From: a virus
DNA: 32,366 nucleotides
Direction: 5' to 3' (one strand)
IMG/VR virus record: IMGVR_UViG_3300044638_000700
Location: 1 to 32,366 of that record
The notes under the pieces were generated by a model. The model saw only the letters and a program-made list of their open reading frames with translations. It was not told where the DNA came from and made no database searches. Position numbers and translations under genes: made by a program. This document shows, in pieces, positions 25,102-31,522 of this stretch; within the stretch, counting starts at the first letter, position 1, and each line of letters opens with the position of its first letter.

Positions 25102-25749
25102 TTAGTGTGCTTTGTAAGATATGGTTTTTGTTGTCCAGCATTCACGACAGTCTAGGCATTTGCCTTGCTGGTTTGGTGCATTGCACTCTGTGCCAATTGC
25201 CTTGTCTGTGTGAACATTAGAGATGGCAATGTTGGCAATGCCTTGCAAGCTTGCTGGCACATTGACCGCCTTGTCAACATACATTGCAGACAAGCGCACA
25301 ATCAAGTTTTTAGGCAATGCCCCATGCTTCTCAATATATTGCTTGATCATTGAGTATTCCCTTGTTGGCAACCAATGCTGGCAATGTGGGGTTTGTTGTG
25401 CAACCTCTGCAATCTTCTCAAGATGCCAAAGCCCTTGCAGATCTCCAGAGTCATGCCAACGAAAATATGGATCTGCTCCAATGCTGGCAACCATTGAATC
25501 AACCCAGAATGCATCATTCAAACTGTCTAATCTTGCATGTTGTGCTGGTTCAATGTTGTTTGCATATTGCAGATAATTGCCTTTGTTTGCATAGCACATT
25601 GAACAGATTGATCCAGCGATCTTTGCCATCTTGAATCCAGTAATGCAAGCCACTGTGGGCAAACTATAGGATTTGCAAGGCATCTTGCTGGTCTGAGTCA
25701 ATCCAGCATTGATTGTGTGAGCTTCTTTCTTGAGCATGATGGTTTTCAT
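25102..25749 (-). CDS. GP88-like phage protein
   Basis: A 215-aa protein from ATG 25749. MPCKSYSLPTVACITGFKMAKI, GSICSMCYANKGNY, YFRWHDSGDLQGLWHLEKI and HWLPTREYSMI match the phage/plasmid family I recall as GP88 ('gene product 88'). Conserved Cys residues (CSMC near 50, and CNAPNQQGKCLDCREC at the end) suggest a metal or Fe-S site. The biochemical role of the family is not known to me. The frame extends to a GTG at 25800, but the ATG 1 base after the stop of the 27-aa peptide is the better start. Confidence 0.75.
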   Translation of the reverse strand: MKTIMLKKEAHTINAGLTQTSKMPCKSYSLPTVACITGFKMAKIAGSICSMCYANKGNYLQYANNIEPAQHARLDSLNDAFWVDSMVASIGADPYFRWHDSGDLQGLWHLEKIAEVAQQTPHCQHWLPTREYSMIKQYIEKHGALPKNLIVRLSAMYVDKAVNVPASLQGIANIAISNVHTDKAIGTECNAPNQQGKCLDCRECWTTKTISYKAH

Positions 25750-25750
25750 A

Positions 25751-25834
25751 TCAACCCCACAATGCCAAGATAACCAGCAAACAGACTTGGGCAATTGCAC
25801 AAGTCACAACGACATAAATATCTTGCTTTTCCAT
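25751..25834 (-). CDS. 27-aa membrane micropeptide
   Basis: MEKQDIYVVVTCAIAQVCLL then VILALWG: a short polar start and one transmembrane helix. It has an AAGGAGA site 7 bases upstream of the ATG, in a leader shared word for word with the gene at 29552, and its stop is 1 base before the GP88-like ATG. The strong site and coupling support expression; the function is unknown (membrane anchor, inhibitor or leader peptide). Confidence 0.6.
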   Translation of the reverse strand: MEKQDIYVVVTCAIAQVCLLVILALWG

Positions 25835-27312: not shown

Positions 27313-27508
27313 TTTTTTCCTTCCAGTTGTACTGACCCTTGACTGTGAATCTGCCAGCCTTGCGAAAGATCGTGAGCAATGACTTGTACGGCACACCAAA
27401 TCTAGCGGCAATCTCTTTCTTGCTGAAGCCCTGGTCATGCAAGCTGAAAGCCCTGCGCTCATCAATCTGGATGGGCTTGCGACCACCGCCTCTATATCCC
27501 CGCTTCAT
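27305..27508 (-). CDS. Small helix-turn-helix protein
   Basis: A 67-aa basic protein. GGGRKPIQIDERRAFSLHDQGFSKKEIAARFGVPYKSLLTIFRKAG is a homeodomain-like/resolvase-type helix-turn-helix (about 8-53). No catalytic domain is attached, so it is a small regulator or an accessory DNA-binding protein. Its start lies inside the 3' end of the methyltransferase gene (17-base overlap) and its ATG is coupled to the end of the alternate ORF at 27509. Confidence 0.65.
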   Translation of the reverse strand: MKRGYRGGGRKPIQIDERRAFSLHDQGFSKKEIAARFGVPYKSLLTIFRKAGRFTVKGQYNWKEKNG

Positions 27509-28316
27509 TTAAGACTCTCCATGCTGTTGCGGCGCACAATGGGACTTGTCCGTTGCCAATGGCTTTAAGTCTGTCCACCCGACAGGCCACCCCATGAGCC
27601 ACTCTACCCACGGCGGGTTCAACTGACCACCATTCCCTGCTCCCATCAGTCGGGCCTCTTCCACTGTCGTGTTCTTGTTGAGCAAATCCCAACTCCCAGT
27701 CCCGCCACACATCCCTGCTGTGCGTGGGGTTGGCCAGGTTAGCACCGCTGTGCTGAGACTTGTTTGCGTCCCCTTCTTTCCATCCCTGCGAATCTGCAAC
27801 CCCTGCCTTGCCTCCGAATGAACTGGCGTTGGCCACAATCCACATTCTGTCCCGCTGGTGTGGTGCGCCAATGTCGGCAGCTCCCATAACAGTCCATCTC
27901 GTGTCATACCCCATTTGGGTAAGGTCAGCAATGACTCGTGTTCCTCCCCTAGTAGTGAGCATTGGGCTGTTCTCCACGAACACGAATCGGGGTCGAACTT
28001 CGCTAACCACCCTCGCCATGTGTGTCCAGAGTCCTGACCGCTCCCCATCCAGTCCATCCCCTTTTCCTGCGGCTGAGATGTCCTGACAGGGAAAACCCCC
28101 GCTGATGACATCGACTTTGCCTCGCCAAGGGTTTCCATCAAAGGTACAGATGTCGTCCCAGATAGGGAATCTAGGTAAGAATCCGTCAGCTTGCCTTTGC
28201 AATAGAACTCTGCGTGGGTAATCTTCGATTTCAACGGCGGCAACGGTTCGCCACCCAAGCAGATGTCCTCCAAGGATTCCCCCGCCACTTCCCGCAAATA
28301 GTGCCAGCTCATTCAT
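27492..28316 (-). CDS. C5 cytosine DNA methyltransferase
   Basis: The product is 274 aa. The C5-methylase motifs appear in order: motif I LFAGSGG (6-12) binding SAM, motif IV GGFPCQDIS with catalytic Cys77, motif VI FVFVENSP (Glu115), motif VIII QRDRMWIV (154-161), and the motif IX/X-like RLKAIGNGQVP (249-259). The target-recognition region between VIII and IX is short (about 165-245), and the protein is smaller than M.HhaI (327 aa). It methylates cytosine in an unknown sequence, probably to evade host restriction; no partner nuclease gene is in view. The ATG overlaps the stop of the 54-aa coiled-coil gene. A second ORF (27509-28312) occupies nearly the whole gene. Confidence 0.92.
   Translation of the reverse strand: MNELALFAGSGGGILGGHLLGWRTVAAVEIEDYPRRVLLQRQADGFLPRFPIWDDICTFDGNPWRGKVDVISGGFPCQDISAAGKGDGLDGERSGLWTHMARVVSEVRPRFVFVENSPMLTTRGGTRVIADLTQMGYDTRWTVMGAADIGAPHQRDRMWIVANASSFGGKAGVADSQGWKEGDANKSQHSGANLANPTHSRDVWRDWELGFAQQEHDSGRGPTDGSREWWSVEPAVGRVAHGVACRVDRLKAIGNGQVPLCAATAWRVLNEAGI
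27509..28312 (-). CDS. Alternate-frame ORF inside the methyltransferase gene (possible overprinted gene)
   Basis: 267 codons open in another frame of the same strand, starting 4 bases after the methyltransferase ATG (ATGAATGAG). The product is unusually Trp-rich (14 Trp) and highly patterned: SWHYLRE start, FPVRTSQPQEKG (74-85), WLAKFDPDSCSWRTAQCSLLG (102-122), KWGMTRDG (133-140), two WPTP motifs (160, 193) and LNPPWVEWLMGWPVGWTDL (231-249). I recall proteins of this architecture as separately predicted phage products. The last motif is the other-frame reading of the methylase motif IX/X. It is either a true dual-coding gene or a recurrent shadow of the methylase sequence. No function known. 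Confidence 0.5.
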   Translation of the reverse strand: MSWHYLREVAGESLEDICLGGEPLPPLKSKITHAEFYCKGKLTDSYLDSLSGTTSVPLMETLGEAKSMSSAGVFPVRTSQPQEKGMDWMGSGQDSGHTWRGWLAKFDPDSCSWRTAQCSLLGEEHESLLTLPKWGMTRDGLLWELPTLAHHTSGTECGLWPTPVHSEARQGLQIRRDGKKGTQTSLSTAVLTWPTPRTAGMCGGTGSWDLLNKNTTVEEARLMGAGNGGQLNPPWVEWLMGWPVGWTDLKPLATDKSHCAPQQHGES

Positions 28317-29551: not shown

Positions 29552-29860
29552 ATGGAATTCGGCACATTTTGGAAAAAACTTGTTCGCCGCAACGCACCCA
29601 CAACCAGTCAGGAAGCAGCCCAGTTGGTCAACACCACCAACATGGAGCAGATCGTCTATGAGGCAATTGCTGACTATCCGCAGGGGTGCATTCAAGACGA
29701 GGTACTAGCTCACCTGTCGAGCTACCCCTACTCTACAGTGACCGCTCGGTTCCGTGCCTTGCTGGACAAGGGTTACATCATTGACACTGGGCTGACCCGC
29801 CCTGGTCGATCAGGAAGAAAACAGCGGGTTCTCATCATCAAGGAGTTTCACAATGCCTAA
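29552..29860 (+). CDS. Winged-helix DNA-binding protein
   Basis: A 102-aa protein from ATG 29552, chosen for its AAGGAG site; the frame is open further upstream. Residues about 33-98 form a winged helix: EQIVYEAIADYPQGCIQDEVLAHLSSYPYSTVTARFRALLDKGYIIDTG, with a beta wing rich in Arg/Gly (TRPGRSGRKQRVL). It is the leader gene of the rightward recombination operon, overlapping the exonuclease gene by 8 bases, and may control that operon or help DNA entry by the exonuclease. Confidence 0.7.
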   Translation: MEFGTFWKKLVRRNAPTTSQEAAQLVNTTNMEQIVYEAIADYPQGCIQDEVLAHLSSYPYSTVTARFRALLDKGYIIDTGLTRPGRSGRKQRVLIIKEFHNA

Positions 29861-30803
29861 ATTAACCTCGGACACCATGCTGTCCTGCTCACAATTGCCC
29901 AGCCTTTTTGGTGTCAGCCCCTACAGCACACCCAACGATGTCCTGACCTTCTGCATGAAAGCCATGCGTGGTGAAGATCCACGCACCCCAGCAGGGGAAG
30001 CCGCAGACTGGGGCAACGCCTTGGAGCCAGCCATCCTTGCTGAAATGGCAAAGCGCCTTGGGCTGAAAAGCTACGTCATGCCCGACACTGCCTTCACCCA
30101 TCCGCACCTGCCACTTGCCGCCAGTGCTGATGCCATCGGTACGCCAGATGACAATGTTGTAATCCAGCATGATCCTAGCAAGGGCATCTATGTGGTGGGC
30201 GCCGACAGCATTGCCCTGATCGGCAACGGAGTGCTGGAATCTAAGCTGACTCGTGGTCACCCAGAGGATCAGCTCCCCCTGTACCGTGGGCCAATCCAAG
30301 TCCAAGGCGTGTTGATGTGTACTGGTTTAGACTGGGCAGCAATCGGTTGCCTGTACTCAGGCGTGGAACTTCGCATCTTCTTGTTCAAGCCACACGGCGA
30401 AACCAAAGAGCAGATCGAGAGCAAAGCCACCGACTTTGCCAACCGCCTGACAACCTTTGAAGAGACTGGCGATATCCAGTATTACCCAGCCGCCAACACC
30501 AAAGATGCCAACAGGGTTTGGGCAGTAGCCAAAGAAGATGAGATTGATTTGGGCATTGATGGCGAGGATCTGATTGCCGAAATCATCGTTGCCAAACAGA
30601 AGATCGAAAGTCTTCAAGATGATATTGATCGCTGGGAAACAGATCTCAAGTCCATGATGAAAGACAGTGCAAGCGGGAAAGCTGGTCACTGGACAGTTAA
30701 GTGGCCCATGCGTCACTACAAAGCCACGCCTGAGAAGATCACGCCAGCAAAAGAAGCCTACTCCATTCGTCAGTCAACGCTCACTATTAAGGAATACAAA
30801 TGA
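29853..30803 (+). CDS. YqaJ-like (lambda Exo family) recombination exonuclease
   Basis: A 316-aa protein. Visible PD-(D/E)XK-type landmarks: SQLPSLFGVSPYSTPNDVL, ADWGNALEPAILAEMAKRLG (about 46-65), AASADAIG with the metal-binding Asp, VLESKLT (Glu-x-Lys), and IQVQGVLMCTGLDWAAI. The C-terminal about 80 aa form a helical extension. It resects double-stranded ends for the annealase encoded next. Stop and start of the ERF gene overlap (ATGA). Confidence 0.88.
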   Translation: MPKLTSDTMLSCSQLPSLFGVSPYSTPNDVLTFCMKAMRGEDPRTPAGEAADWGNALEPAILAEMAKRLGLKSYVMPDTAFTHPHLPLAASADAIGTPDDNVVIQHDPSKGIYVVGADSIALIGNGVLESKLTRGHPEDQLPLYRGPIQVQGVLMCTGLDWAAIGCLYSGVELRIFLFKPHGETKEQIESKATDFANRLTTFEETGDIQYYPAANTKDANRVWAVAKEDEIDLGIDGEDLIAEIIVAKQKIESLQDDIDRWETDLKSMMKDSASGKAGHWTVKWPMRHYKATPEKITPAKEAYSIRQSTLTIKEYK

Positions 30804-31522
30804 AACAGATTGCATCAGCCCTTGTCAAAGCCCAACGTGCCTTTGGCCCAGCTCTGAAGACCAGCACCAACCCACATTTCCGCAGCCGATATGCTGACCT
30901 GTCAGCCTGTGTGGAAGCGGTCATTGATGCCTTAAATGAGAACGGCATCTTTTTACTGCAAAAAAATTACGACTGCAATGACGGCATCATGTGCGAGACA
31001 GTCTTTGTCCACGAGTCTGGCGAGATGCTGGAGTGCGGCATCGTCCACTTCCCTGCGGTCAAACAAGATCCACAGGGGTATGCCAGTGCCTTGACCTACG
31101 CTCGCAGATACAGCCTGATGTCAGCCTGTGGCATCGCTCCAGAAGATGACGATGGCAATGCTGGTAGCCGCCGTCAAGCGCCAGCAGCCAACCCATTGGA
31201 TGCCATCAAGCCAGCGCCAGCAGTGACACTGCCTTACACCCTCACGATACCAGGCAAAGAGTCACGCCAATATGCTGACTCAGAATCGTATGTCAATGAG
31301 ACTATCGAGTTGCGGGACAAAGTAGAGAAATCAACCTTGGCAACCCGCACAAAAATGACTAAGCTTCGGGAGCTGAAAGAGGCAAACGAGGATCAGGTTA
31401 ACAAGATCAACCCTGAGCATAAGGCCAAGTTGCTTGGGGATTACCAACTGCGCTTGAAGAGACTGGGCGCACAGCTTGAGGAGAAAGAAGATGAATCTAA
31501 CGGACTGGGAGAAGCTGGATAA
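30800..31522 (+). CDS. erf: ERF-family single-strand annealing recombinase
   Basis: A 240-aa protein. ERF landmarks are TNPHFRSRYADLSACVEAVIDAL (about 23-45), DPQGYASALTYARRYSLMSACGI and the acidic EDDDGNAG. After a Pro/Ala linker the C-terminal half is a helical, charged region with TIPGKESRQYADSESYVNETIELRDKV. It pairs complementary strands made by the exonuclease, as in P22 Erf or lambda Beta systems. It probably works with the SSB-like protein and RusA encoded elsewhere in the window. Confidence 0.88.
   Translation: MKQIASALVKAQRAFGPALKTSTNPHFRSRYADLSACVEAVIDALNENGIFLLQKNYDCNDGIMCETVFVHESGEMLECGIVHFPAVKQDPQGYASALTYARRYSLMSACGIAPEDDDGNAGSRRQAPAANPLDAIKPAPAVTLPYTLTIPGKESRQYADSESYVNETIELRDKVEKSTLATRTKMTKLRELKEANEDQVNKINPEHKAKLLGDYQLRLKRLGAQLEEKEDESNGLGEAG

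Follow-up and report, generated by a model that had tools for sequence, protein, structure and literature searches.

The window analysed here is the whole of positions 1–32,366 of IMG/VR record IMGVR_UViG_3300044638_000700 (32,366 nucleotides (nt); all coordinates below refer to it), and two overlapping genes on one of its strands very probably specify the two subunits of a single C5-cytosine DNA methyltransferase. The first gene, alpha, is read in frame A and the second, beta, in frame B, which lies +1 relative to alpha. A preliminary description of this DNA had pointed out two long frames on one strand with starts 4 nt apart. Both are present, on the minus strand, and the motifs quoted for frame B as well as its 14 Trp residues were all found. 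The features of the locus are listed below; dN/dS is the ratio of nonsynonymous to synonymous change in the frame named, TRD the target-recognition region, and the structural model was made with AlphaFold2 (AF2).

27492..28316, minus strand: alpha gene (frame A), C5-cytosine methyltransferase of 274 amino acids (aa) with motifs I–VIII and X (PF00145, E 3.7e-31; phrog_363, E 1.8e-70).
27509..28312, minus strand: beta gene (frame B), 267 aa plus stop, with the putative TRD and motif IX (stop avoidance; frame-B selection; phrog_1008, E 5.8e-24).
28308..28316, minus strand: ATGAATGAG, holding the start codon of alpha and, 4 nt downstream, the ATG of beta (beta ATG conserved).
27831..28310, minus strand: alpha motifs I–VIII (FAGSGG, GGFPCQDIS, ENS, QRDR), frame A dominant (A dN/dS 0.14–0.25; ordered in the AF2 model).
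27878..28000, minus strand: beta stretch FDPDSCSWRTAQ...LPKWGMTRDG over alpha motifs VI–VII, both frames constrained (lowered A third-position diversity; B dN/dS 0.54).
27623..27841, minus strand: putative beta TRD with two WPTP motifs, the overlapping part of alpha being a neutral spacer (B dN/dS 0.36, A 0.99).
27566..27622, minus strand: putative beta motif IX, LNPPWVEWLMGWPVGWTDL (B dN/dS 0.14; the beta profile matches motif IX of mycobacteriophage WillSterrel, E 7e-10).
27540..27572, minus strand: alpha motif X, RLKAIGNGQVP (A dN/dS 0.10 just downstream of IX; helix 259–271 in the AF2 model).

Homologous loci were collected by searching IMG/VR separately with each frame, and both frames were open in nearly all of them. 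The number of stops expected in frame B was obtained by shuffling the synonymous codons of the methylase, with its protein and its codon counts held fixed. For the window gene alone, such shuffles of frame A gave approximately six frame-B stops, and none of the 300 shuffles was free of stops. Across 105 distinct homologous loci a single internal frame-B stop was observed, against approximately 563 expected; the frequent stops in the second frame among homologues, for which the preliminary description had proposed to look, are thus almost wholly missing. The 35 loci found by the methylase-frame search only contained no frame-B stops (180 expected). Frame C of the same 105 loci showed no depletion, with 1752 stops against 1472 expected, and this excess over the synonymous shuffles is probably a side effect of the constraint on frame B. 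In the +1 frame of 90 neighbouring genes 992 stops were present where 1045 were expected, an observed to expected ratio of 0.95.

When 79 loci thinned to less than 90% identity were counted region by region, from the second codon to codon 254, the observed and expected frame-B stops were 0/44, 0/66, 0/166, 0/78 and 1/81, and codons 2–95 of frame B had no stops against 110 expected. Also the divergent subfamilies (Kagunavirus, Paenibacillus phage Leyra, mycobacteriophage Aubs and a Lacticaseibacillus phage) had no frame-B stops, with four to seven expected in each. For phiBT1 and Suarez just 0.7 and 0.3 stops were expected, and the stop test has no power there. At the sequence level dual coding is close to certain, and frame B is a real, selected gene.

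Two loci have one interrupted frame. In L055 the long beta frame is interrupted and alpha is open, and in L052 alpha is interrupted in the spacer and beta is intact; these are either degenerate copies or sequencing errors.

Of the 79 thinned loci, 77 kept the beta ATG. It is supplied by an Asn codon of alpha, which was AAT in all 76 loci with Asn at this place, compared with 305 of 778 Asn codons (39%) elsewhere, a comparison among related sequences to which no formal probability is attached. Translation of alpha and of beta probably initiates separately, at start codons that lie 4 nt apart (ATGAATG).

Selection on the two frames was estimated from 43 non-overlapping pairs with an OLGenie-style count for overlapping frames. 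From motif I to motif VI, dN/dS was 0.14 in A and 0.76 in B, and from VI to VIII 0.25 and 0.54, respectively. In the TRD the values were 0.99 (0.86–1.15) in A and 0.36 (0.26–0.47) in B, and in the LNPxWVEWLMGWPxGWT region, corresponding to the putative motif IX, 0.66 in A and 0.14 (0.07–0.23) in B. In motif X they were 0.10 in A and 0.77 in B. Codon-position diversity agreed with these estimates on which frame is dominant in each region. Selection forms a reciprocal mosaic, each frame being dominant over part of its length, and coding selection acts on both frames of the same DNA, as in an overlapping, dual-coding pair. A is neutral across the apparent TRD, and B is constrained both there and in the next motif and carries the information in these two regions; at motif X it is again carried by frame A. 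The synonymous constraint in the methylase frame that the preliminary description had suggested looking for is present, both in the codon-position diversity and in the overlapping-frame selection test.

The alpha chain carries motifs I, IV (PCQ), VI (ENx) and VIII in the order typical of PF00145, with FAG, GGFPC, ENS and RxR invariant in the family alignment, and its profile matches M.HhaI over 5–172. After the TRD region it also has motif X (GNxxxP) as GNGQVP, under strong constraint in frame A. A TRD and a motif IX are not found in the same chain, the TRD being neutral in A and the motif IX-like sequence lying in frame B. Alpha is filed as one subunit of a C5-methyltransferase, since it has no selected TRD or motif IX in its own frame. 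In the AF2 model of alpha, residues from approximately 1 to 165 and the motif X helix (259–271) are ordered, and residues 168–254 have a predicted local distance difference test score (pLDDT) below 50. The best solved match of the model is M.HhaI (Z 16.1, 185 aligned, root-mean-square deviation 3.3).

Motif IX of C5-methyltransferases has the layout L-x-P followed by M/Q-G-F/Y/W-P, and the beta motif LNPxWVEWLMGWPxGWT has this layout and corresponds to it. The beta stretch over alpha motifs VI–VII (FDPDSCSWRTAQ...LPKWGMTRDG) is common to the beta of phiBT1 and Suarez. Pfam gave no match to any beta, and the beta profile found nothing significant among the PDB sequences.

Relatives in which the same parts are arranged differently point to the nature of beta. 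Mycobacteriophage WillSterrel has in one reading frame motifs I–VIII, a TRD with PTP repeats, LNPAFPEWMMGWPTGW and GNGVVP; in motif letters, its single open reading frame runs PCQPFS, ENV, QRDR, PTP-repeat TRD, LNPAFPEWMMGWPTGWV, GNGVVP. The alpha profile matches WillSterrel residues 20–159 (E 1.7e-21) and the beta profile residues 331–357 (E 7e-10). Together with Gordonia phage Phinally, also single-chain, WillSterrel resembles the window in the catalytic motifs, the PTP-repeat TRD, the type of motif IX and motif X, but it has everything in one reading frame. In phiBT1, Suarez, McFly and locus L218, alpha stops after motif VIII, and IX and X are in beta. The phiBT1 beta matches positions 409–496 of phrog_116, and alpha positions 212–375. 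The preliminary description had asked for standalone homologues of the second frame; beta homologues indeed reach well past the overlap (phiBT1, Suarez, McFly) or share a chain with the catalytic domain (WillSterrel). Alpha and beta thus appear to be parts of one enzyme, which is found single-chain, split or nested.

Two further loci differ in layout. L218 (2470–3667), from a metagenome-assembled genome of Spirochaetia, is a close relative with an AquI-like layout and a 389-aa beta holding IX and X. In L168 (1824–2549), from a viral contig, alpha I–VIII runs in a single frame into the beta TRD and IX, either as a natural in-frame fusion or as an assembly error.

In the proposed enzyme, alpha would provide the large domain for S-adenosylmethionine binding and catalysis (motifs I–VIII), with the catalytic Cys in GGFPCQDIS, and also the motif X helix. 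Between VIII and X it would be a neutral, probably disordered spacer, mainly required to be free of stops. Beta would form the small domain, made up of a PTP-repeat target-recognition region and motif IX; it would read the target sequence and, through motif IX, hold the TRD against alpha. Once assembled, the pair would be equivalent to a single-chain C5-methyltransferase, probably modifying phage DNA against host restriction. That beta is translated, that it forms a complex with alpha, that the complex methylates DNA and that it has this role is what we infer. The core of the preliminary description, namely that dual coding is conserved here and linked to DNA methylation, is supported by the synonymous constraint, the scarcity of stops and the homologues extending past the overlap. 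Of the overprinted gene it considered possible, the second gene itself is real, but the implied new protein of unrelated function gives way to the TRD and motif IX half of the same methyltransferase, to which the evidence points. There is about an even chance that the locus belongs to a class of C5-methyltransferases widespread in phages and prophages, in which dual coding is obligate and dominance reciprocal; the recognition half would in its entirety be nested from the 4th nucleotide of the gene for the catalytic half, target specificity (beta) would thereby evolve over neutral alpha spacer, and the approximately 95 extra N-terminal residues of beta, brought in by the overlap, may have a function of their own.

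If frame B were an untranslated shadow, its openness and similarity would just mirror methylase conservation and codon use. The two frames use the same DNA, and conservation of A will by itself make B sequences resemble each other; A is also clearly dominant in motifs I–VIII. However, the single stop in place of 563 was obtained with the amino acids and codon counts of A fixed, neither frame C nor the neighbouring genes show depletion, and the divergent subfamilies show the same scarcity of stops as the rest. In the TRD and IX regions B is the conserved frame, with A neutral or weakly constrained, and a mere shadow retains an almost negligible probability. Alternatively, programmed frameshifting could fuse alpha I–VIII to the beta TRD–IX in one chain, and single-chain relatives do exist, L168 having exactly these parts in frame. 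Motif X, however, is back in frame A after IX, which would require a second shift back. Neither the lack of stops in frame-B codons 2–95 (0 against 110 expected) nor the conserved beta ATG at the 5' end is required by a shift after VIII, and frame A is kept open through the neutral spacer. With X lying in A, and with B free of stops and its conserved ATG placed well before any useful shift point, a frameshifted single product is very unlikely. It is also quite unlikely that alpha is a complete methyltransferase alone and beta a separate functional protein, such as a regulator or an anti-restriction protein, overlapping it by chance: alpha is without a selected TRD and without motif IX in its own frame, the beta motif sits at the place of motif IX in the single-chain methyltransferase, and IX and X are held by beta in the split relatives.

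Several points weigh against the two-subunit methyltransferase. Multiple hits and codon bias are not taken into account in the dN/dS estimate, and the TRD was aligned by frame A. Residues 1–95 of beta are weakly constrained (B dN/dS 0.76), and outside motif IX no sequence similarity between beta and solved C5-methyltransferases could be detected. The AF2 prediction of beta alone was poor except around motif IX (mean pLDDT 54.5) and was not used for a fold search, although this may be no surprise for a subunit whose folding depends on its partner. In the two-polypeptide enzyme M.EcoHK31I the predicted TRD has been put in the large subunit (PMC3404938), whereas that of the window is selected in beta and neutral in alpha.

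As the preliminary description stated, proteins with WPTP / LNPxWVEWLMG do occur as separate predicted products of phages: public records carry alpha only, beta only or both. Alpha alone is annotated in ABMM1, S9-5, Vibrio 1.003.O, PS-1 and Mel-JY01, beta alone in phPA-G, Vibrio 1.236.O and 1.291.O, and both in K1ind1, K1ind2, fTaEco03 and Leyra. Beta of the window type is also present in bacterial genomes of several phyla and in 14 of the 249 sampled genomes of Pseudomonas, the genus of locus L174, and these copies are probably prophages. Gene finders often keep only one frame, either alpha as a methyltransferase or beta as a hypothetical protein, and consequently half an enzyme may be what is assayed when methylation by such phages is examined. 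Orphan phage methyltransferases of this class are predicted to show no activity when alpha alone is cloned. The locus is a clear example of dual coding over a long stretch of one strand in bacteriophages, backed in approximately 100 loci by stop avoidance, by codon-position diversity and by selection tests for overlapping frames, and here dual coding comes with a functional reason and with living alternatives (single-chain, split and nested).

As a whole the window resembles the DNA of a tailed phage; its genes include those for a terminase, a head-tail adaptor, an internal virion protein and a tail fibre. A 232-aa protein at 25102–25800 (minus strand) matches phrog_1392 (function unknown; E 1.7e-16). 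At 29853–31522 (plus strand) a RecE-like exonuclease adjoins an Erf-like annealing protein, whereas most other genes are on the opposite strand. Scans for Rfam families, tRNAs and promoters returned nothing of relevance.

The small subunit of M.EcoHK31I, of which M.EaeI is an isoschizomer, is encoded inside the large gene in another frame and has approximately 176 aa, whereas beta of the window, at 267 aa, covers almost the whole of alpha. The large subunit of M.EcoHK31I contains motifs I–VIII and X and the predicted TRD, and the small subunit IX only (PMC3404938). The window, compared by description, shares with it a large subunit with I–VIII and X and a motif IX on the second polypeptide. 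A B. anthracis prophage orphan methyltransferase has been predicted to have M.EaeI-like specificity (PMC4722110), which serves as a lead only. M.AquI is a C5-methyltransferase split, like the proposed enzyme of the window, between VIII and IX into two polypeptides (PMC3404938). However, in M.AquI both IX and X are in the small subunit, whereas alpha of the window carries X and its two genes overlap almost completely. The phiBT1, Suarez and L218 systems, with IX and X in the small subunit, are nearer to the AquI layout than to the window. Kagunavirus K1ind1 and K1ind2 ('C-specific methylase' and 'Mte8-like protein') and Paenibacillus phage Leyra have, like the window, a nested methylase and second frame, both annotated, the latter with the motif LNPxxxxWLMGYP or LNPEWVECLMGFP; their beta starts 88 or 184 nt into alpha, compared with 4 nt in the window. 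Among open-licence PMC papers none describing such an overlap in phages was found. With M.EcoHK31I and M.AquI as precedents, the new points are that the genes overlap almost totally, that the selection test puts the TRD in beta, and that the system is broadly distributed in phages.
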